64,000 nt of DNA from Natronosalvus halobius (GTDB taxonomy: Archaea; Halobacteriota; Halobacteria; Halobacteriales; Natrialbaceae): positions 496,001 to 560,000 of the forward strand of contig NZ_CP099997.1 of assembly GCF_024138145.1 (NCBI RefSeq). Direction: 5' to 3'. This document shows, one piece after another, positions 10,150 through 49,238 of this stretch. How positions within the stretch are numbered: position 1 is the stretch's first letter; every line of letters begins with the position of its first letter. The notes beneath the pieces are model-generated. The model was not told where the DNA came from. It worked only from the letters and a program-made list of their open reading frames with translations, and ran no database searches. A program made the translations under genes and the position numbers.

Positions 10150-10221
10150 ATGGAGGACTCCCTCGTCTTCTTCGATGCACTGATTCACCCGTATCGCCAA
10201 GGAGAACCCGAACCACGATGA
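10150..10221 (+). CDS. Possible 23-aa leader ORF coupled to mobA
   Basis: ATG at 10150 opens a 23-codon frame (MEDSLVFFDALIHPYRQGEP...) that ends in a TGA overlapping the mobA start as ATGA. Translational coupling by ATGA is common in this window between genuine neighbours. It may be a leader peptide, or simply chance because the frame is short. Confidence 0.3.
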   Translation: MEDSLVFFDALIHPYRQGEPEPR

Positions 10222-10877
10222 CCGAGACTCCCTCGCGCGCCGGCGTCATCATCGCGGGCGGGTTTTCGACTCGCTTCCAGGACGGCGACAAGGCAGTCGC
10301 CGACCTCGACGGCACGCCGTTGATCGGCCACGTCGCCGACCGACTCGAGGACGTGACGGACGAACTCGTCGTCAACTGCCGCGCCGAGCAGGTCGACGCC
10401 CTCCAGGACGCACTCGAAACCAGGTCGCGGACGATCCAGGTGGCCGTCGACCGAACGCCAGACCGCGGTCCTCTCGCCGGGATCGCGACGGGGCTCGAGG
10501 CCGCGAGCGCTCCCGTCGCGGCGGTCGTAGCGTGTGACATGCCGTTCGTCGAGACGGCGTTACTCGAGGCACTGTTCGAGCGACTCGAGGGTGATGGTGA
10601 TCGTGAGACCGACGAACATGAGGTTAGGACGGCGGCCGTCGTCCCGAAGCATCCGGACGGCTGGTTCCAGACGACCCAGGCCGTCTACCGGACAGAACCG
10701 ATGGCCAATGCGTGTCGCACGGCGCTCGAGGCCGACGAGGGCAAGATCCTGGCTGCGCTCGACAGGATCGAGTGGACCGTCCTGGAGCCAGCCGACTGGA
10801 AACGACACGCGACGCTCGGTTCGTTCGACAGCATCGACACGCGAGCGGACCTCGAGGCGGCACGGGCGCGGTTCTGA
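10218..10877 (+). CDS. mobA: Molybdenum cofactor guanylyltransferase
   Basis: A 219-residue nucleotidyltransferase. The N-terminal motif is AGVIIAGGFSTRFQDGDKAV at residues 8-27, a variant of the LAGGxSxRMGxDK loop that binds GTP; PLIGHVADRL follows. The middle has RTPDRGPLAGIATGLEAA and VVACDMPFVE (metal-binding D in CDMP). This is the order seen in MobA, which attaches GMP to molybdopterin for DMSO/nitrate-reductase-type enzymes. F-Q replaces the usual M-G in the loop. No molybdoenzyme gene lies in this window. Confidence 0.85.
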   Translation: MTETPSRAGVIIAGGFSTRFQDGDKAVADLDGTPLIGHVADRLEDVTDELVVNCRAEQVDALQDALETRSRTIQVAVDRTPDRGPLAGIATGLEAASAPVAAVVACDMPFVETALLEALFERLEGDGDRETDEHEVRTAAVVPKHPDGWFQTTQAVYRTEPMANACRTALEADEGKILAALDRIEWTVLEPADWKRHATLGSFDSIDTRADLEAARARF

Positions 10878-28162: not shown

Positions 28163-29266
28163 CTACGGGTTCGGATTGAAGATGTCGGGTTCCGGTTCGC
28201 CCTCGACCTCAATGACGCCCAGCATCCCCCGCCGAGCGGCTCGAGTGAGTGCGTGGTCGACGAGCTTGATCGGACCGGGAACCGGGGTCTCCATCTCGCC
28301 GGCCGCGACGGAACCGGGGACGACCGGCGCAGTTTCGATGAAGCGGCCCGGATCGGAGACCAGGTCGCCCTCGCGGTAGTACGCATCGAAGACGTTCCCG
28401 ATGGGGTGGAGGGCACTCGTCAGGTTCGGACCGCCGTTGGCGAAGAACACGCGAACCCGTTCGCCCTTCTGGACGGTCACGGGGCCGTAGCCGTTCCCGG
28501 TGAACGCGTAGGCCTCGCCGTTGAGGGTGACGTAGGTCGGGTCCTCGGCTTTCATCTTGTCGAAGCTGAACGCGTGGTGGCCCTCCTCGCCGGGGGTTCC
28601 CTTCGTGTACAGTTCGTTCTGCCCGAAGTACAGTTCGCGGTCGACCTCCGGGAGGCCGTCTTCGGGCTCGACGAGGATCGCGCCGTACATCCCGGCGCTG
28701 ATGTGGTAGTCCATGTTCGGGACTGCACAGTGGTATACGTGCACGCCGGGGTACATCGCCTTGAACTCGATTTCCGCGCTCTCACCCGGACTGATCGTCG
28801 TGTCCTCGGCGCCCCCACCAGGGCCGTAGACCGCGTGAAGGTCGATGTTGTGGGGCATCGAGTTCTCCTCGCTGTTCGTGAGCGTGAGGTGGATCGTGTC
28901 GCCCCGGCGCACGCGAATCATCGGTCCCGGGATCTGGTCGTCGAACGTCATGTAGTCGAAAGTGACGCCCGGTTCGATCTCCGCGGTGACCTCCGTTGTC
29001 GTCATCGAGATTTCGTGGCGACGCGGCTCGTTCCAGTCGACCGGCCCCGGAATGTCCGTCGGATCGGCCGCAACGCGGTCGACGTCGACTGGCTTCGCAC
29101 CCGGGAGGGATTCCTCCGTGTCGCCCGCTGGTTCTTCGCCGTTGCCAATTCCGTTTCCGTTTCCATTCCCCTCGTCAGCGTTCCCGACACAGCCAGCGAC
29201 CGCTACTGCACCAGCCACACCGAGCCCCTGCAAGAACCGCCGTCGTTTCGAATTCAGTTGGGTCAT
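28163..29266 (-). CDS. nirK: Copper-containing nitrite reductase (lipoprotein)
   Basis: 367 residues from the ATG at 29266. It starts with a tat-type signal (KRRRFLQGLGVAGAVAVAGC, lipobox Cys26), then a Gly-Asn spacer. Two cupredoxin domains carry a full set of copper ligands: type 1 Cu H139, C180, H188, M193; type 2 Cu H144, H179, H338. The proton-relay pair D142 (in HNIDLH) and H287 (in SALHPIG) is present. It reduces nitrite to NO on the outer face, using electrons from a small blue-copper protein such as the halocyanin at 31.5 kb. It is the 3'-most gene of a minus-strand group with two DUF2249 genes. Confidence 0.95.
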   Translation of the reverse strand: MTQLNSKRRRFLQGLGVAGAVAVAGCVGNADEGNGNGNGIGNGEEPAGDTEESLPGAKPVDVDRVAADPTDIPGPVDWNEPRRHEISMTTTEVTAEIEPGVTFDYMTFDDQIPGPMIRVRRGDTIHLTLTNSEENSMPHNIDLHAVYGPGGGAEDTTISPGESAEIEFKAMYPGVHVYHCAVPNMDYHISAGMYGAILVEPEDGLPEVDRELYFGQNELYTKGTPGEEGHHAFSFDKMKAEDPTYVTLNGEAYAFTGNGYGPVTVQKGERVRVFFANGGPNLTSALHPIGNVFDAYYREGDLVSDPGRFIETAPVVPGSVAAGEMETPVPGPIKLVDHALTRAARRGMLGVIEVEGEPEPDIFNPNP

Positions 29267-29318
29267 TGTCCTCACCTGGGAGTATGGCTTGACGTATGTT
29301 CAAGTATGAATACGATTC

Positions 29319-29465: not shown

Positions 29466-29741
29466 TCACTCTCGCCAGATAACGGTCACGACTTCGGCGT
29501 CGGTCTCGAGCGTCTCGTACGTGTAGCCCCGGTCCTCGAGTTTCGGATACAGAAACTGCGGGGCGCGGTCGTTTCGCTGGAGTAACACCGCTTCGTCGGG
29601 CAGGTCCGCCAGTCGCTCGAGCGTGTTCGCGAGCGGAGCGGGCGGCCCCAGCGATCGGACGTCGAGAACGGTTCGCGGCCGGTCCTGGGGCGCTGACGTT
29701 CGTTCGACGACGGATTCGTGGCCCTGGTCGTGAGTAGACAT
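29466..29741 (-). CDS. DUF2249 domain protein
   Basis: 91 residues. DUF2249 core: TVLDVRSLGPPAPLANTLER, LADLPDEAVLLQRNDRAPQF and LYPKLEDRGYTYETLETD, ending VVTVIWRE. The family shares the TusA-like fold and is often found beside denitrification and haem genes; the function is unknown. Here it lies between nirK and a second DUF2249 gene on the same strand. Confidence 0.85.
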   Translation of the reverse strand: MSTHDQGHESVVERTSAPQDRPRTVLDVRSLGPPAPLANTLERLADLPDEAVLLQRNDRAPQFLYPKLEDRGYTYETLETDAEVVTVIWRE

Positions 29742-29867: not shown

Positions 29868-30101
29868 TTACTCGGCTCGTTTGGGGAACTCCGCGACGAA
29901 TTTCCCCGCCTCGGCCTGCTCGACGGCGTATCCGTCGACGTCGAACTCGTCGACTTCCGCCTGGAACTCGTAGAACAGCGGCTTCGGTTCGTGATCGTTG
30001 ATGATCGTCAGCGTTTCGCCCGCCTCGAGTTCGTCGAAGGCGTCGTGAATCGTCGGATGGCGGTCGACCGGCGGAATCGATCTCACATCGAGTGTCGTCA
30101 T
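29868..30101 (-). CDS. DUF2249 domain protein (short form)
   Basis: 77 residues: TLDVRSIPPVDRHPTIHDAF, DELEAGETLTIINDHEPKPL, FYEFQAEVDEFDVDGY. The DVRxxPPxxRHxxI start and the NDHEPKPL turn are characteristic of DUF2249. H-D-H residues could bind a ligand. Transcribed toward nirK; the DUF2249 pair next to a nitrite reductase suggests a role in NO or copper-enzyme maturation, which is inference. Confidence 0.87.
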   Translation of the reverse strand: MTTLDVRSIPPVDRHPTIHDAFDELEAGETLTIINDHEPKPLFYEFQAEVDEFDVDGYAVEQAEAGKFVAEFPKRAE

Positions 30102-30720: not shown

Positions 30721-31392
30721 ATGGCTCACGCGACGCTCACCGTCACGCTCCCGGAGAAGGTGTGGGTACAGGAGGTCTCGAGCGCCCACCCGGAGGCCAC
30801 CTTCTACGTCGACGCCGCGGTTCCGGGCGCCGAATCGGGGTTTGCCCTCGTTCGAATCACCGGTCCCGACGTCCCGGCTGTCCTGGAGGACATGGAAGAC
30901 CACCCGCAGCTCACCGAAATCTCGCTAATTCAGTGGAGCGAGAACGAGGCGACGGTCCACTTCGAGACCACGGCCCCGCTGTTGCTCTTCTCCTCGCGCG
31001 ACTCCGGCATGCCGATCGAACTCCCGGTCGAGATCCGACAGGGGAAAGCGACCCTCGAGGTGGCTGGCTCTCGGGACCGACTCTCCCAGCTGGCCGACCA
31101 GTTCTCCCGGTTCGGCCTCGAGTACCGTATCGACAGCGTCCAGGAGCGGCTTCACGACACGCAGTTGCTGTCTGAGCGCCAGCACGAACTCGTCGTCGCT
31201 GCCGTTGAGCACGGGTACTACGATACCCCACGCCGGTGTTCGCTGACCGACCTCGCCGACCGTCTCGATATCGCGAAGTCGACCTGCAGCGAGACGCTTC
31301 ATCGCGCCGAAGAGGCGATCATCAAGCAGTTCGTCGACAATCTGGTCGACGTGGAGCAAGCGCTTCCGTTCGAGGAAGAACTGGTGTCCTGA
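30721..31392 (+). CDS. Bat-like HTH_10 transcriptional regulator
   Basis: 223 residues. The first about 150 residues form the Bat-type alpha/beta sensory part (VSSAHPEATFYVDAAVPGAE, ALVRITGPDVPAVLEDMEDH), without PAS or GAF. The C-terminus is HTH_10: LSERQHELVVAAVEHGYYDT, SLTDLADRLDIAKSTCSETL, HRAEEAIIKQFVDNL. It lies between divergently organised denitrification genes and just upstream of the halocyanin gene, so it is the best candidate regulator of nirK and its neighbours. Confidence 0.9.
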   Translation: MAHATLTVTLPEKVWVQEVSSAHPEATFYVDAAVPGAESGFALVRITGPDVPAVLEDMEDHPQLTEISLIQWSENEATVHFETTAPLLLFSSRDSGMPIELPVEIRQGKATLEVAGSRDRLSQLADQFSRFGLEYRIDSVQERLHDTQLLSERQHELVVAAVEHGYYDTPRRCSLTDLADRLDIAKSTCSETLHRAEEAIIKQFVDNLVDVEQALPFEEELVS

Positions 31393-31466: not shown

Positions 31467-31527
31467 GTAGTCTGGAAATCACCGCTGTGCTCCTATGCTC
31501 CTATTCCATACTCCTGCCCAGAGGTAT

Positions 31528-32040
31528 ATGACTGTACACGATGGACGGAAACGGCGATTTCTACAGGCCGTTGGTGGAGCGCTCCTCTTCAGCGGACTCG
31601 CTGGATGTCTCGAGGACGAAGAAGCGAGCAGCGGCAACGGCAACGGGAACGGGAATAGTAACGGCGGAAACGGTAACGGGAACGGGAACGGCAGCGCCGA
31701 GTACGACTTCGACGGCTACCTCGACGACGCCAACAACTACGACGGCGTCGAGGATCACACCGGTGAGTCCGAGGTCGCCGTCGACGTCGGTGCCGGCTCG
31801 GACGGCTTCGCGTACGAACCTGCGGCCATCGTCGTCGACTCGGGAACGACCGTCGTCTGGGAGTGGACCGGCGCCGGTGGCAGCCACGACGTAATCGCCG
31901 AGGACGGAAGCTTCGAGAGCGAGATGTACGGCGACGAAGGCGAGACCTTCGAACACACTTTCGACGAGACGGGAACCTTCACCTACTACTGCTCGCCCCA
32001 CATCAGCATGGGCATGAAAGGCGCCGTCGTCGTCGAATAG
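31528..32040 (+). CDS. Halocyanin (blue-copper lipoprotein)
   Basis: 170 residues from the ATG at 31528. A tat-like signal ([20 protein letters not shown]) ends in lipobox Cys27. A Gly-Asn-rich tether covers about residues 36-56. The cupredoxin domain has Cu ligands H120, C155, H158 and M163 (CSPHISMGM). It would be anchored outside the cell and shuttle electrons from a membrane quinol oxidoreductase to acceptors such as NirK. It precedes the ferredoxin/NrfD genes on the same strand with a 52-base gap. Confidence 0.93.
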
Positions 32041-32092
32041 CTCCAGCCATGATCGTACTATTCACGACGCGAACGCCGAGGTGGACTCGCGT

Positions 32093-33364
32093 ATGAGCGC
32101 CGACGAAGCCGAAACCGGAGCCGCCGACGCTACGGAGACACTCGAGGCACTCCACACCGACGAGTGGGAGGCAGAGATGCGCGAACTACTCGAGGACGGC
32201 GAGTACGACGCCGACCTCGGGCTGGCGATGGCCAAGGACGCCCAGCGCCTCGTCGCGGGTGAACTGATCGAAGCCGAGTTCGCCGCGCGCTACCACGACG
32301 CGGTTGTCGAAGAGTTCGACGTGGACGATTCCGAACTACCCGAGGAGCTGGCAGGGCTCGAAGATATCGACGACGAGCGTTCGCTGGCCGACAGACTGGC
32401 CGCCCTCGAGGAGGACGGCGAGATGGACCGCCGCGAGGTGATGAAGAAGATGGGAGCCGCGGGACTCTTCCTCGGACTCGGCACCTGGGCTACGGTGGAC
32501 AGCGCCGAGGGCGCCGACCCGGCCACGGCCGCCGGCGAGGGCGAAGACGAGGGCAAGCAGTACGGAATGGTCATCGACCTCGAGAAGTGCGACGGCTGTC
32601 TCTCCTGCGTGGTCGCCTGTAGCCAGGAGAACAACACCTCGATGGGGGCCAACTGGATGTACGTCTTCACCTACGAGGAGCCCGACCAGGACGGGCACAA
32701 CTTCCTCGTGCGGACGTGCCAGCACTGTTCGGACGCCCCCTGCCAGAAGGTCTGTCCGACGACCGCGAGACACAAGCGGACCGAGGACGGCCTCGTACTC
32801 ACCGACTACGACGTCTGCATCGGCTGCCGGTACTGTCAGGTGGCCTGCCCCTACGGCGTGAACTACTTCCAGTGGGGCGAACCCGATACGCCGCAGTCGG
32901 AACTCGATCCGGAGCACGTCTACGATGGACGCGACCGCCGGGTCGACAGCCGGCCGCCGAAAGGCGTCATGGGCAAGTGTACGATGTGTCCCTCCCGCCA
33001 GGACGGCAAACAAGGCGAGGACAAGATCGGCACGACCGCCTGCGAGGACGCCTGCGCGATGGACGCCATCCACTTCGGGGACATGAACGACGAGGACAGC
33101 GACCCCAACCGCTACCTCGAGCAGGTTCGGGAGGCGAATCCAAACGACCGCGAGACGTTCCCCAACCGGACCGAGAACACGGTCTCGACGTTCCGGCTGC
33201 TCGAAGAACTCGGCACCGACCCGAACGTCGTCTTCGTCGGGAACGAACCGGGCCCCGACGCGAAACAGGTCGAGGGGCCCGTGGCCTACGAGGATGTCGG
33301 GCAACTCGACCGCCGGAAGGAAGTCCTGGACGACGGCACGTTCGCCGGAGGTGTCTCGCCGTGA
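32093..33364 (+). CDS. PsrB/DmsB-like four-cluster ferredoxin with N-terminal domain and internal tat-like motif
   Basis: 423 residues. Residues 1-110 are an acidic helical domain. Then MDRREVMKKMGAAGLFLGLG (111-130) is a twin-arginine-like segment placed internally. From 157 on it is a DMSO-reductase subunit B-type protein with four [4Fe-4S] sites: C166-169-172-176, C209-212-217-221, C242-245-248-252 and C296-299-317-321. It overlaps the NrfD gene by 4 bases (GTGA). Normally such a protein links a Mo catalytic subunit to NrfD, but no Mo subunit gene is present here. It may pass electrons from NrfD to halocyanin. Confidence 0.92.
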   Translation: MSADEAETGAADATETLEALHTDEWEAEMRELLEDGEYDADLGLAMAKDAQRLVAGELIEAEFAARYHDAVVEEFDVDDSELPEELAGLEDIDDERSLADRLAALEEDGEMDRREVMKKMGAAGLFLGLGTWATVDSAEGADPATAAGEGEDEGKQYGMVIDLEKCDGCLSCVVACSQENNTSMGANWMYVFTYEEPDQDGHNFLVRTCQHCSDAPCQKVCPTTARHKRTEDGLVLTDYDVCIGCRYCQVACPYGVNYFQWGEPDTPQSELDPEHVYDGRDRRVDSRPPKGVMGKCTMCPSRQDGKQGEDKIGTTACEDACAMDAIHFGDMNDEDSDPNRYLEQVREANPNDRETFPNRTENTVSTFRLLEELGTDPNVVFVGNEPGPDAKQVEGPVAYEDVGQLDRRKEVLDDGTFAGGVSP

Positions 33365-34725
33365 GTACCGAACGTCCGAGCGAAGCGGACATCGTTCGGC
33401 CGATGCAGCGCACCTCGAAGGGATACTACGGCCTGCTCGCGGTCGTCTCCCTTGGAATCCTCGCGTTCCTGATCGGTTGGGGACTCCAGCTTCGAGACGG
33501 CCTCATCGTCACCAGTCTCGGGGACTGGGGCTCGAGCGGCGGCGTTACCTGGGGGCTGTACATCGGCGCGTTCATCTGGTGGGTCGGGATCGCCCACGGC
33601 GGGATCATCCTGTCGGCGGCGGTCCGCCTGCTCGGGATGGACCGGTACAAGCCGGTCGCCCGTCTCGCGGAGTTGCTGACGATTGCCGGGCTGACGGCGG
33701 CCGGACTGTACATCATCATCCACGTCGGCCGGCCGGACCGGATCGTCACGAGCATCCTGCTCAACTACCACGAGACGATCCACACCTCGCCGCTGGTCTG
33801 GGACGTGACCGTCATCACGCTCTACTTCGTGATGACCGCGACCTACCTCGCGCTGACGATCCGCTACGACGTGACGCGTCTGCGCGACGACCTCCCGGAC
33901 CGACTCGAGCCGCTGTACCGGGTACTGACAATCGGGTACACCGAGGCGGAAGACGAGGTCGTCGAACGGATGGTCTGGTGGCTCGCGCTGGGGATCATCA
34001 TCCTCGCGCCGCTGTTGCTCCACGGTGGGGTGATTCCGTGGCTCTTCTCCCTGCTGTCGTCGATGCCCGGCTGGTCGGGCGCGGTTCAGGGTCCGCAGTT
34101 CCTGACCATCGCGCTGACCTCGGCCATCAGCGGCGTGTTGATCGCCTCCTACGCGTTCCGGCGAGCGTACGACTGGGACCACATCATCACCGACGACGTG
34201 TTCCGCGGGCTCTTGCTGTGGCTCGGCTTCTTCAGTCTGCTGTTCCTCTGGCTCCAGCTCCAGCAGATCATCAACGGCGTCTTCGCACCGCCGGTCGACG
34301 TCGACTACGCGATGCACGCCAAACTCGCCCAGCCGCTGTACTGGGTGTCGATGGGCCTCGTCTTCGGGACGATGGCGTACGTCTTCGCCCAGACGCTCCG
34401 CCCGTCGCTGTTCAGCCTCGAACGCAGCATCGCCGCGGCGGTCGCGGTGCTCTGTGCGACGCTGGTCGAGAAGATCCTCTTCGTCGTCGAGGGGCTCATG
34501 CACCCGACGTTCAGCCTCTACAGCGGCGTCCCGGGTTCGTACTTTCCGAGCCTCGTGGAACTCTCCTCACTGGTCGGGACCATCGCCATCGTCATCACGT
34601 TCTTCATGGTCGTCGCGAAGGTCATCCCGGTCGTCGAACTCCACGCGATCGAGGAACTGCGGGGCCACGACGACGAGACAGAATCGTCTCCGACGGCTGA
34701 CTCCTCGATGGAGGTGAACGCGTAA
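33361..34725 (+). CDS. nrfD: NrfD/PsrC-family quinol-interacting membrane subunit
   Basis: 454 residues from a GTG at 33361 that overlaps the ferredoxin stop. About ten hydrophobic helices. The first bundle has TWGLYIGAFIWWVGIAHGGI and IILSAAVRLLGMDRYKPVAR, the NrfD site that faces the quinone pool; HVGRPDRI and PLVWDVTVITLY follow as in PsrC/NrfD. Family members exchange electrons with menaquinol and may translocate protons. The next gene starts on its last base, so the three genes are one unit. Confidence 0.92.
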   Translation: MSTERPSEADIVRPMQRTSKGYYGLLAVVSLGILAFLIGWGLQLRDGLIVTSLGDWGSSGGVTWGLYIGAFIWWVGIAHGGIILSAAVRLLGMDRYKPVARLAELLTIAGLTAAGLYIIIHVGRPDRIVTSILLNYHETIHTSPLVWDVTVITLYFVMTATYLALTIRYDVTRLRDDLPDRLEPLYRVLTIGYTEAEDEVVERMVWWLALGIIILAPLLLHGGVIPWLFSLLSSMPGWSGAVQGPQFLTIALTSAISGVLIASYAFRRAYDWDHIITDDVFRGLLLWLGFFSLLFLWLQLQQIINGVFAPPVDVDYAMHAKLAQPLYWVSMGLVFGTMAYVFAQTLRPSLFSLERSIAAAVAVLCATLVEKILFVVEGLMHPTFSLYSGVPGSYFPSLVELSSLVGTIAIVITFFMVVAKVIPVVELHAIEELRGHDDETESSPTADSSMEVNA

Positions 34726-34925
34726 TGGCGTTCGGCCCCGGCACGTGGCTCATCTTCGGGATCATCCTGGTCCCGGTCTACGTGGTCCTCCTGGCGTGGT
34801 ACCTCGGCGAGCCCCGCGACAGGAAGACGGCGACCCTCGGGGTGGTCTACCTCGTGGGACTGACCACGCTCCTTTGGACCGCCATGTTCATCAAGACGGT
34901 GATTCTCGACGTGATCTTCTTCTAA
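34725..34925 (+). CDS. Small two-helix membrane protein of the NrfD operon
   Basis: 66 residues: GTWLIFGIILVPVYVVLLAW, then the basic loop GEPRDRKTATLG and VVYLVGLTTLLWTAMFIKTV. Its ATG uses the last base of the nrfD stop (TAATG), which indicates obligate co-translation. It is probably an accessory subunit of the ferredoxin-NrfD complex. I do not know a named family. Confidence 0.75.
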   Translation: MAFGPGTWLIFGIILVPVYVVLLAWYLGEPRDRKTATLGVVYLVGLTTLLWTAMFIKTVILDVIFF

Positions 34926-35004: not shown

Positions 35005-36102
35005 ATGACCGTATCCGAATCCGACCTCCGAACCCAACTCGCAACCGTACAGGACCCCGAACTCGAGGACGACATCGTCTCGCTCGGCCTCGTCAACGAC
35101 GTCTCCATCGAGGACGACACCGCCCGGATTTCGCTGGCGTTCAACGCGCCCTACGCTCCCGCCGAGATGGCGATGGGGAACCGCATCCGTGAAGTCGTCG
35201 CCGACCTCGACGCGGACCTCGAGGCCGACGTTCGCGCCAACGTGGGCGAGGACATCGGCTTCGACGAGGAGATCCTTCCCCGGGTGAAGAACGTGATCGC
35301 CGTCTCGAGCGGCAAAGGCGGTGTCGGCAAGACGACCGTCGCTGCGAACCTCGCGGCCGGTCTCGAGAAACTGGGCGCGCGGGTCGGCATCCTCGACTCG
35401 GACATCCACGGCCCGAACGTCCCGCGCATCCTGCCGATCGAGGGCGAACCCGGAATTACGCCCGACGAGGAACTCGTGCCGCCCCGGTCGGACGGCGTCC
35501 GCGTCATCAGCATGGGCTTTCTCACGGAGAACGCGGACGACCCGGCGATCCTCCGGGGACCGATGGTCAACAACATCATGACCCAGTTCCTCCAGGAGGT
35601 CGAGTGGGGCGTCCTCGATTATCTGATCGTCGACCTGCCGCCGGGAACCGGCGACGCGACGCTCAACCTCCTCCAGCTCATGCCCGTCGCGGGGGCCGTC
35701 ATCGTCACGACGCCCCAGCAGATGGCCGTCGACGACACCCGGAAAGGGCTGCGCATGTTCCAGGAACACGATGCGCCGATCCTGGGTATCGTCGAGAACA
35801 TGTCGACCTTCCGGTGTCCGAACTGCGACGACCAGCACGACCTCTTCGGCCGCGACGGTGGCGACGACATCAGCGCCGACTACGACGTCCCGCTGCTCGC
35901 GAAACTCCCCCTCGATCCCGAGTTCGGCGCCGAAGAGCGCGACGTCCCGCCGGTCAAGGATGACTCGAGCTCCGTCCAGGGTGCTCTCGAGGACCTCATC
36001 GAAACCGTCGCCGACCGGATCGGGGAGGTGAACCGGGCTCGAGTCGCCGACGCAACGGCGAACGAGGTCGAAGAGCCCGTTCCGTCCGCGGCCGGCCAGT
36101 AG
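35005..36102 (+). CDS. mrp: Mrp/NBP35 (ApbC) family Fe-S cluster carrier ATPase
   Basis: 365 residues. Residues 1-80 are a MIP18/DUF59 domain (VQDPELEDDIVSLGLVNDVS). The deviant Walker A reads SSGKGGVGKTTVAANLAAGL (about residues 101-120), with DSDIHGPNVPRIL and DYLIVDLPPGTGDATLNLLQ. The cluster-binding CxxC is in FRCPNCDD. It assembles or transfers [4Fe-4S] clusters in the cytosol. It follows the three-gene ferredoxin-NrfD unit by 79 bases, which fits a role in loading its clusters; a general housekeeping role is equally likely. Confidence 0.93.
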   Translation: MTVSESDLRTQLATVQDPELEDDIVSLGLVNDVSIEDDTARISLAFNAPYAPAEMAMGNRIREVVADLDADLEADVRANVGEDIGFDEEILPRVKNVIAVSSGKGGVGKTTVAANLAAGLEKLGARVGILDSDIHGPNVPRILPIEGEPGITPDEELVPPRSDGVRVISMGFLTENADDPAILRGPMVNNIMTQFLQEVEWGVLDYLIVDLPPGTGDATLNLLQLMPVAGAVIVTTPQQMAVDDTRKGLRMFQEHDAPILGIVENMSTFRCPNCDDQHDLFGRDGGDDISADYDVPLLAKLPLDPEFGAEERDVPPVKDDSSSVQGALEDLIETVADRIGEVNRARVADATANEVEEPVPSAAGQ

Positions 36103-43255: not shown

Positions 43256-43416
43256 AGTTCTGACCGTCGCGTTTCTGGGTCGAGGTTTCTCGTTTCTCAG
43301 GAGGGCGCTCTCGTCGCTCATCCCTCTCCGCCTCGCCGCCAAAATACCTGCCAGCGAACGCCGACCGGAATATGTTCGGAACCATCTCGAGGTAGCTCGA
43401 GCCCCTTTCGTTGAAT

Positions 43417-44820
43417 ATGAGCGCGATACCGGGATCGATCGACGCGGATCGAGGTCCGCCGATGACGATCCCCCTTCGACACTTCCTGGTCGGGACCGGG
43501 CTGTTGCTCGCCGGAGCTTTCGCGGGGGCCGTCCATTCGTTCGACGCAACGGTCGTTCCCGGGAATCTCGGGCTGGCACACGTTCACCTCCTGCTGGTGG
43601 GCTGGGTCGCCGTGACGATCATGGGCGCAATGACCCAGTTCGTCCCGGTCTGGTCTGGCGTTGCCATCCACTCGAGGCGCTTGGCGAGCGCACAACTGTG
43701 GCTGGTCGTCGTCGGCCTCCTCGCGTTCGCCGCCGCGCTTCTGGTGGGCGCGTACCGCTGGCTCCCGCTCGGCGGGTTCGTGATGCTCGCAGGGTTCTGG
43801 ACGTTCGTCTACAACGTAGGGCGGACGCTTCGCTCGGCCCGGCCGTGGGACGTCACCGAGCGCCACTTCGCCATCGCGCTGGGCTTTTTCGTCCTGTTGA
43901 CGGGCCTGGGCGTGGTTCTCGCAGCCGGCCTGACGCGGCCGATTCTCGCGGATACGCCCGTGAGCCACGGATCGGTCCGGATGAGTCACGCGACCCTCGC
44001 GCTCTACGGGGCCGTCCTCACGACTGTCTACGGAGCGCTCTACCAGCTCGCCACGATGTTCACCCAGTCGAGTCTCCACGGGATCGACCTCCCGCTACGT
44101 CGACTCGAGTCGGTCGGCCATCCCGTGGGTGTCCTCGCGCTGGCTGGAGGACGGCTCTTCGACGTCGCGCCACTTGCCCGCGTGGGTGCGGTCCTCGTCG
44201 TCGCCAGCGCCCTCGGAATGAGCGTGATCCTGGTCCGTCGGCTCCTCGAGGCACAGGTGCCCTGGACGCCGATGCTCAGCCGGTACGCCGTCCTCGCCAC
44301 GGCGATGGGTGGGTGGGCGATCTGGACTGGTCCCGCCTGGTTGCGCGACCCGCTCGACCCGGCCACGCTCTTCGGCGCCCCTGGCGCCGCCTCGCTGTTG
44401 ATCCTCGGCGTCATCGGCTTCATCGTCCTCGGGACGCTCTACCACGTGGTTCCGTTCATCGTCTGGGTCCACCGCTACAGCGACCGACTCGGTCTCGAGC
44501 CGGTGCCCATGATCGACGACCTCTACGACGACCGGGTGGCGCGCGCCGACTTCGTCTGTTTCGTCGTCGGAGTGGGGTTGCTGGTCGCCAGCGACGCGTT
44601 CGAACTCTCGGGGGCCTCGGGAGCTCTGGGAACGGTCTCGACCATCGGTGGACTCTCGGTCACGATTGGCGCCGCGCTCTTCCTGCTCAACGTGGTCCTG
44701 GTCCTCAGGCGACACAGTCCCCACTCGGTGCCGGGATTGCTGTTCGGTCGGTTCTCGAGTGAAGAGCCAGGAAGCGAGCCGTCGCCCTCCCAGCCCGGCG
44801 TCGACTCGCCTCCCAGGTGA
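43417..44820 (+). CDS. Multi-helix haem-copper-oxidase subunit I-like/NnrS-like membrane protein
   Basis: 467 residues from the ATG at 43417. About twelve hydrophobic helices. Histidines sit where subunit I-type proteins bind haem: LAHVHLLLVGWVAVTIMGAM, RMSHATLALYGAVLTTVYGA, LYHVVPFIVWVHRY. It lacks the full catalytic ligand set I would need for a terminal oxidase or NO reductase. Such proteins appear in haloarchaea near nitrogen-oxide or oxidase genes; a haem/NO-related role is inferred. Confidence 0.7.
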   Translation: MSAIPGSIDADRGPPMTIPLRHFLVGTGLLLAGAFAGAVHSFDATVVPGNLGLAHVHLLLVGWVAVTIMGAMTQFVPVWSGVAIHSRRLASAQLWLVVVGLLAFAAALLVGAYRWLPLGGFVMLAGFWTFVYNVGRTLRSARPWDVTERHFAIALGFFVLLTGLGVVLAAGLTRPILADTPVSHGSVRMSHATLALYGAVLTTVYGALYQLATMFTQSSLHGIDLPLRRLESVGHPVGVLALAGGRLFDVAPLARVGAVLVVASALGMSVILVRRLLEAQVPWTPMLSRYAVLATAMGGWAIWTGPAWLRDPLDPATLFGAPGAASLLILGVIGFIVLGTLYHVVPFIVWVHRYSDRLGLEPVPMIDDLYDDRVARADFVCFVVGVGLLVASDAFELSGASGALGTVSTIGGLSVTIGAALFLLNVVLVLRRHSPHSVPGLLFGRFSSEEPGSEPSPSQPGVDSPPR

Positions 44821-47987: not shown

Positions 47988-49238
47988 TCAGTCACCAGCA
48001 ATAGGCCGGTGACTCTCGCCGTTCAATGTCCCACCATTCACACGCAGGTCTACTTCTGCGTCTCCGTTCCCCGACGTGGGCGAGGAACGGAGTCTGTGTG
48101 TCCGCTTTCGGGCGTAGCGGAGCCCGATATTCTTCGCGCCGTTGTAATCCGCGTTCACCTCGTACCCGCACTTCTGGCAACAGAAGCGTTCTCCGTGGCG
48201 GTTGGCCTCGTGTGTGAACCCACAGTCCGTCCGAGAACAGCGCTGGGACGTGTGATTCGGCGCGACTTGCTCCACGGAGACGCCCTTCTCGGGTGCTTTG
48301 TACTCGACGTACTCGAACAGGCGTCGAAACGCCCAGACGTGGTGCCACTTCGCGTGCGGAAGACGCTCGCGTATGTCGGTCAAGTCTTCGAACGCGATAA
48401 CGTCGCAGTCTCGTTCGACGGCTTCCGCGACGAGTTCGTTGGCGACGGTGTGAATGTACTGTTTTCGCCACGCGTCTTCGCGCTTCCCGAGGCGAAGAAG
48501 CGCGTTGTGCGCGGCTTGCGTGCCGCGCTGTTGCATCTCACCCCGTCGCTTCTCGAACTCACGACACCAGTGGTCGTACTCGTCTCCCTGCCAGAACGTG
48601 CCGGTCGAGGAGACGGCCAATGAGTTGACGCCGAGGTCGATACCGAGGACCGTTTGGTCGGAGTGCCCGGTATCTACCGGAACCTCCGCGTCATTGCCGT
48701 CGATCCGCCGAGTCGAGATATTGAGGTAGAACTCGTCGGTAGCCGCGTCGTACCGAAGCGTACTCTCGCGGAACTCGTAGTCTTCGGAGAGGACGTACCG
48801 CTCGTAGGGCGTCGGGCTATCGGCCGGAAGAACGAACGAGGGTTCGACCCGGCCCTCAATTGTCGCTAACGACACCTTGCGTCGGTAGAAGGTGGCGCTT
48901 CGCATGTCGTAATCCATCGTTTCGTCGGTGAACGTTGGGGAAGAGACACACTGTCCCTTCTTCCAGCGTTCGACGACGCCTTTGATGGCTTCGACGGCGC
49001 GTCGTATCGCGGCTTGGACGAGTTGGGCTGGTAACTCTGTCTCCGCTCGGAGGTCCGAGTAGAGTGCGTCCCGTACTTGTCGTTTGTTGGTCTTGCACTC
49101 GCTGTACGAGGTTTCAGACCAACAGTAGTCGGCGGTTCGGTTCGCACAGTACAAGTATTGCTCGGCAGTTCGGTGGAGTGTGTCGCGGTGCTCGTCGGAA
49201 ACGGCGAGTTTCACGACGGCGGTTCGACGCACGTCCAT
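47988..49238 (-). CDS. tnpB: TnpB-type RNA-guided nuclease
   Basis: 416 residues, full length. RuvC acidic residues are present: D201 in VLGIDLGVNS, E284 in IAFEDL, D364 in ADYNGAKNIG. The zinc ribbon has C334, C339, C354 and C357. The N-terminal wedge-like part (VVKLAVSDEHRDTLHRTAEQ) and YCWSETSY are the usual start of haloarchaeal TnpB. It should cut DNA next to a TAM using the omega-RNA, which favours retention of the element after transposition by a TnpA supplied elsewhere. Confidence 0.93.
   Translation of the reverse strand: MDVRRTAVVKLAVSDEHRDTLHRTAEQYLYCANRTADYCWSETSYSECKTNKRQVRDALYSDLRAETELPAQLVQAAIRRAVEAIKGVVERWKKGQCVSSPTFTDETMDYDMRSATFYRRKVSLATIEGRVEPSFVLPADSPTPYERYVLSEDYEFRESTLRYDAATDEFYLNISTRRIDGNDAEVPVDTGHSDQTVLGIDLGVNSLAVSSTGTFWQGDEYDHWCREFEKRRGEMQQRGTQAAHNALLRLGKREDAWRKQYIHTVANELVAEAVERDCDVIAFEDLTDIRERLPHAKWHHVWAFRRLFEYVEYKAPEKGVSVEQVAPNHTSQRCSRTDCGFTHEANRHGERFCCQKCGYEVNADYNGAKNIGLRYARKRTHRLRSSPTSGNGDAEVDLRVNGGTLNGESHRPIAGD

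Follow-up and report, generated by a model that had tools for sequence, protein, structure and literature searches.

How do haloarchaea that lack a bc complex pass electrons from menaquinone to halocyanin? The route has been stated to be unresolved (PMC8305020, PMC3403918), and in Natronomonas pharaonis no complex III could be assigned (PMC2881530). We address this question through a gene cluster of Natronosalvus halobius (contig NZ_CP099997.1, positions 496,001 to 560,000; this stretch of 64,000 nucleotides is hereinafter the window, whose own numbering we use), in which genes for a halocyanin, a ferredoxin, an NrfD-like membrane subunit and a 66-residue membrane protein lie in a row near that for the copper nitrite reductase NirK. 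A first-pass annotation had read this set as a molybdenum (Mo)-free route from menaquinol through the ferredoxin to halocyanin and on to NirK, replacing a bc1-like complex. On the computed evidence, which comprises the gene set, its homologies, conserved motifs, the absence of a Mo partner and a distribution complementary to that of cytochrome b, the operon probably encodes a heme-free, Mo-free menaquinol:halocyanin oxidoreductase that acts as a functional complex III and takes the place of the bc complex where haloarchaea have no cytochrome b.

Among solved structures, the NrfD-like protein matches only chains of ActC, a subunit of alternative complex III, by both sequence (e-value 3e-21) and profile (e-value 9e-33). 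Its AlphaFold model (predicted local distance difference test [pLDDT] 81; predicted template-modelling score [pTM] 0.85) recovered ActC first in Foldseek searches (TM-score about 0.8; 0.79-0.82), followed by ActF, and VIA-align returned Z-scores of 37-39 for ActC, 26.6 for ActF and 17.9 for PsrC; QrcD and DsrP were not among the matches of the model with either program. The parallel with alternative complex III drawn in the first-pass annotation is thus upheld by both sequence and fold. Residues named for the ActC quinol site, among them His139, Ser164 and Asp169 (PMC8076601), align with His120, Ser142 and Asp147 of the NrfD protein. Of these, Ser142 and Asp147 do not vary across 143 aligned rows, and His120 is retained in nearly every row, a few distant ones having Ser or Asp instead. 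The gate residue Arg395 of ActC is replaced by lysine (Lys370) throughout the NrfD rows, as in DsrP1. The subunit hence resembles that of alternative complex III in being an ActC-type NrfD with an outer-face quinol site, with the exception of ActC Asp253, taken up below.

The ferredoxin has 16 cysteines, for four iron-sulfur (Fe-S) clusters, all of them conserved in a 28-row alignment except Cys169, which is lost in two distant rows. A twin-arginine motif (RR113-114), the mark of a ferredoxin exported to the outer face by twin-arginine translocation (Tat), is invariant in the same rows and stands before a hydrophobic stretch; Tat export and an outer-face location are predicted from this sequence feature. 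About 110 residues (the PF16947 domain, window 32093-32430) precede the motif, and the NCBIfam alignment places residues 111-347 on positions 3-218 of the DsrO model, that is, the arginines on the start region of DsrO. The PDB matches of the ferredoxin are ArrB and ActB. DsrO and DsrP are the best NCBIfam matches of the pair, each below its equivalog cut-off (ferredoxin 151 bits, cut-off 200; NrfD protein 74.6 bits, cut-off 350). These two proteins belong to a complex without a Mo subunit (PMC8076601), and the first-pass annotation was accordingly too strong in taking a Mo subunit as the normal partner of PsrB/NrfD pairs. Matches of the ferredoxin and NrfD proteins to the QrcC and DsrO/DsrP models, together with the quinone-reducing activity of Qrc, would suit a complex that works in reverse or with a different donor or acceptor on the outer face, such as a quinone reductase supplied by a dehydrogenase outside. 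We regard this as improbable in view of the adjacency of halocyanin in several lineages and the complementarity with petB, both described below; the potential of halocyanin also lies well above that of menaquinone, which weighs against reverse running.

The row of genes stands as first annotated, by coordinates and family models alike, with overlaps of 4 bases between the ferredoxin and nrfD genes (GTGA at 33361-33364) and of 1 base between nrfD and the gene for the 66-residue protein. Missing from the earlier list were a fifth operon gene, whose ApbC/Mrp Fe-S carrier is the probable maturation factor for the ferredoxin, a conserved HTH_10 regulator upstream and two DUF2249 genes. We compared gene order across 80 haloarchaeal loci and stretches from further genomes, 73 of the loci having enough downstream sequence. 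Because the small membrane protein is kept behind ferredoxin-nrfD in 73/73 of these and the Fe-S carrier in 70/73, the arrangement is not due to chance. The order that the first-pass annotation suggested looking for in other haloarchaea is therefore widely kept as regards ferredoxin, nrfD and small protein; halocyanin lies directly 5′ of the ferredoxin in 16 of the 73 loci (some loci in this count being one genome taken twice), in Natrialbaceae as well as in distant lineages of the Halovenus type. With a Tat/lipobox start region (RKRRFLQ...LAGC), the halocyanin is the likely outer-face electron acceptor. The upstream regulator is conserved in Natrialbaceae (31 operon loci), and searches with Pfam-type and NCBIfam models found no family for the 66-residue protein. 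Beside the main type we also observed operons of ferredoxin, nrfD and small protein that are more distantly related (34-47% identity; L011, L012, L007, L008) and, in many petB-less Natrialbaceae, a second, solitary nrfD paralogue without a ferredoxin (L017, L023, L028 and about 27 further loci). These paralogues mostly form one clade within this NrfD family with all quinol-site residues intact; unlike ActF they retain that site, and we rejected them as its equivalent. They may exchange or pair with the operon copy.

The similarity of the ferredoxin and NrfD proteins to the B and C subunits of complex iron-sulfur molybdoenzymes (CISM), and the assignment of archaeal group-C sequences to DmsC (PMC8076601), would also fit a pair that transfers electrons for a Mo enzyme of the dimethyl sulfoxide (DMSO), polysulfide or nitrate reductase type, with its catalytic subunit encoded elsewhere. 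The first-pass annotation had found no molybdopterin subunit for the pair in the window, and this holds well beyond it. The organism's own genome (3.85 Mb, 95% complete) contains one NrfD match and one molybdopterin enzyme, a formate dehydrogenase alpha subunit (above the curated cut-off) without a Tat start, and no other Mo catalytic subunit was found in the whole genome. Moreover, among 80 genomes carrying this NrfD type, 11 gave no PF00384 match at an e-value <=1e-15, and eight of these, including the single-contig G094, G174 and G268, have no PF00384 candidate whatever; the operon neighbourhood was seen directly in all eight. On these whole-genome searches we rejected a Mo partner encoded elsewhere. 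With ActC rather than PsrC as the nearest structure of the NrfD protein, the Mo-enzyme reading is highly improbable here and, since some genomes have no Mo enzyme at all, nearly refuted as a general account. Two related observations are that the window carries a MobA-like guanylyltransferase gene (10218-10877, below the equivalog cut-off) despite the genome's single molybdopterin oxidoreductase, and that, some 4 kb away from the operon, an apparent Natronomonas pharaonis genome (L179:15363-18999) carries genes for a further Mo enzyme that has a ferredoxin and an NrfD-like subunit to itself.

We scored 392 Halobacteriales genomes for this NrfD type (e-value about 1e-150 or better) and for petB, which codes for a cytochrome b6-like protein (PF00033, e-value <=1e-38; a second, longer NarC-like cytochrome b scores 1e-26 to 1e-33). 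Both occur in 36 genomes, NrfD only in 94, petB only in 242 and neither in 20 (odds ratio 0.03), which places this NrfD in 94/114 petB-less genomes; the genomes cannot be counted as independent, most of those without petB belonging to one Natrialbaceae clade, and that the counts overstate independence tells against the proposed replacement of the bc complex. In the window's family NrfD is present in 75/75 petB-less genomes and petB in 11/11 NrfD-less genomes, and the complementarity recurs in families beyond Natrialbaceae. By genus, NrfD is found in 23/30 petB-less versus 18/65 petB-bearing genera (p=1.3e-5), and within Natronomonas in 6/6 petB-less versus 1/5 petB-bearing genomes (p=0.015). 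We examined the neighbourhood in 21 petB-less genomes of several families, and the genes for ferredoxin, NrfD and small protein stand side by side in every one of them, the operon context of the remaining family members being taken from the 80-locus set rather than from their own neighbourhoods. None of 59 re-tested NrfD-only genomes has a cytochrome b at an e-value <=1e-8. When the 20 genomes with neither gene were re-tested at 1e-8, 12 proved to have the second, longer cytochrome b; among the other eight, G046 and G106 are without a heme-copper oxidase, and completeness is <80% in five and 91% in G343. The longer cytochrome b (about 440-520 residues; L169-L178), which most Halobacteriales with neither petB nor this NrfD have, may be their complex III.

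CuA oxidases are fed by a soluble one-electron donor. A COX2 search in 22 petB-less operon genomes gave 21 matches, all with the full CuA motif C-x3-C-x3-H-x2-M, and therefore a quinol:halocyanin step is needed in those cells. This bears on the view that petB-less haloarchaea need no complex III, their oxidases drawing directly on menaquinol and the operon serving another purpose, for which the soda-lake natronoarchaea can be adduced, being said to use quinol oxidases and to have neither complex III nor its alternative homologues nor any c-type cytochrome (Sorokin and colleagues, PMC6176080). The CuA motifs in 21 of the 22 genomes sampled speak against such direct feeding, and the view leaves the presence of NrfD in every petB-less genome of the window's family without explanation; we give it little credence, and reject direct quinol oxidases as a general answer. 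A 469-residue protein of the window (43411-44820) matches COX1 weakly, at 32.1 bits against a cut-off of 34.8, and is possibly a heme-copper-oxidase-like membrane protein.

The onward passage of electrons to NirK fared poorly. Overall the co-occurrence with nirK is weak, nirK being present in 51/94 NrfD-only versus 121/242 petB-only genomes; of the 44 loci with long flanks, nine have nirK close to the operon. Among petB-bearing genomes an association does appear, with nirK in 27/36 of those with NrfD versus 121/242 of those without (p=0.007). This association, the NirK gene within 3 kb of the operon in the window and its proximity in those nine loci would favour a denitrification-specific donor to NirK over a general complex III; with nirK absent from 43/94 NrfD-only genomes and no NrfD-nirK association in the window's family, we consider such a restricted role rather unlikely. 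The NirK link may be a local specialisation, and in the window's organism the enzyme would be an extra branch beside petB, possibly for denitrification.

Returning to the menaquinol:halocyanin oxidoreductase, we infer which reaction it catalyses and in which direction, how electrons reach halocyanin, and ion pumping through NrfD, with Lys370 at the gate position, as follows. Menaquinol would be oxidised at the outer-face site of the ActC-like subunit (His120, Ser142, Asp147), and electrons would travel by way of the four Fe-S clusters in the Tat-exported ferredoxin to the lipid-anchored halocyanin and thence to CuA-type terminal oxidases, or to NirK where it is nearby. The two-helix 66-residue protein would be a structural subunit, and the ApbC-type carrier would load the ferredoxin clusters before Tat export; the NrfD subunit may also translocate ions. 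Where haloarchaea have no cytochrome b, the enzyme would replace the bc complex, and in petB-bearing species such as the window's it would form an additional branch. The first-pass proposal of Mo-free transfer in place of a bc1-like complex is thus strongly supported by the petB complementarity, the genomes without a Mo enzyme and the ActC-like sequence and fold.

Several further observations weigh against this reading. The window's own genome retains petB. ActC quinol-site Asp253 corresponds to Leu227 in the NrfD protein. In the ferredoxin the Tat motif comes unusually late, at about residue 113, and the AlphaFold model of that protein is poor (pLDDT 43.7) and was not used. Where halocyanin does not adjoin the ferredoxin, its part as acceptor is presumed. 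Several aerobic genomes have neither petB nor NrfD, most of them with the longer cytochrome b and G343 with none, and G017 has the operon with no COX2 match. We lean slightly towards a broader statement, namely that the operon represents a minimal heme-free, Mo-free archaeal alternative complex III, probably ion-translocating via its ActC-like subunit, which in roughly a quarter to a third of haloarchaea supplies the menaquinol:halocyanin step that had been missing, and which replaced the bc complex in several lineages.

The operon and its neighbours are listed in Table 1; the DUF2249 proteins are not proposed as subunits. Elsewhere the window encodes a TnpB-family RNA-guided endonuclease (47988-49238).

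Table 1. Genes of the operon and its surroundings, in window positions.
Gene	Position	Strand	Family evidence and remarks
Halocyanin	31495-32040	+	TIGR03102 134 bits (cut-off 94), PF00127; alternative start at second ATG, 31528
Ferredoxin, 423-residue product	32093-33364	+	PF16947 (Ferredoxin_N) and several 4Fe-4S/Fer4 models
NrfD/ActC-like membrane subunit	33361-34725	+	PF03916 NrfD 84 bits (cut-off 26)
66-residue two-helix membrane protein	34725-34925	+	Constant operon partner; no family match
ApbC/Mrp (NUBPL-type) Fe-S carrier ATPase	35005-36102	+	PF10609 298 bits
Bat-like HTH_10 regulator, upstream of halocyanin	30721-31392	+	PF04967, PF15915
NirK copper nitrite reductase, divergent neighbour	28163-29275	-	TIGR02376 384 bits (cut-off 296)
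DUF2249 protein, neighbour	29466-29741	-	PF10006
Second DUF2249 protein, neighbour	29868-30101	-	PF10006 82.6 bits

We found no earlier proposal of this operon as the complex III in question in the open-access literature searched. It offers a concrete gene-level candidate, and the best one, for the missing respiratory step from menaquinone to halocyanin; if the assignment is true, it adds a third, heme-free link from quinol to one-electron carriers to those made by bc-type complexes and by the complete alternative complex III, and energy-yield models of these organisms would change.

Of the known systems, alternative complex III (ActABCDEF; Rhodothermus, Flavobacterium, Chloroflexales) shares with the operon the closest NrfD relative, ActC, an outer-face Fe-S protein resembling domain B2 of ActB, the proposed transfer from quinol to a one-electron carrier and an occurrence mainly where bc1 is missing. 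It differs in that the archaeal operon is without the Mo-like B1 domain, a family scan detecting no Mo-type domain in the ferredoxin, which is a separate protein with a haloarchaeal Ferredoxin_N domain rather than a B1-B2 fusion as in ActB. Further, a family scan and a search for CxxCH in the translations revealed no multiheme or monoheme cytochrome c of the ActA/ActE kind among the operon proteins, the operon has no second NrfD subunit (ActF), in line with the single NrfD match in the genome, and halocyanin stands in place of cytochrome c or the high-potential iron-sulfur protein (HiPIP). DsrMKJOP likewise combines, in DsrO and DsrP, a Tat-type ferredoxin with an NrfD without Mo and shares the gate lysine; in contrast, our operon has halocyanin and the 66-residue protein, scores below the DsrO/DsrP equivalog cut-offs and contains no DsrM, DsrK or DsrJ, for which no genome-wide search was made. 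PsrABC/DmsABC, of the CISM type, have a comparable four-cluster B subunit and NrfD-type C subunit; they differ in the Mo catalytic subunit, absent from the operon and from several whole genomes, and in a PsrC fold far less similar than that of ActC. Finally, haloarchaeal petABD, the b6f-like complex III, would carry out the same reaction from menaquinol to halocyanin with unrelated proteins: a family scan of the operon found no cytochrome b gene, Rieske protein is likewise absent from it, and the two systems are nearly complementary in their occurrence.

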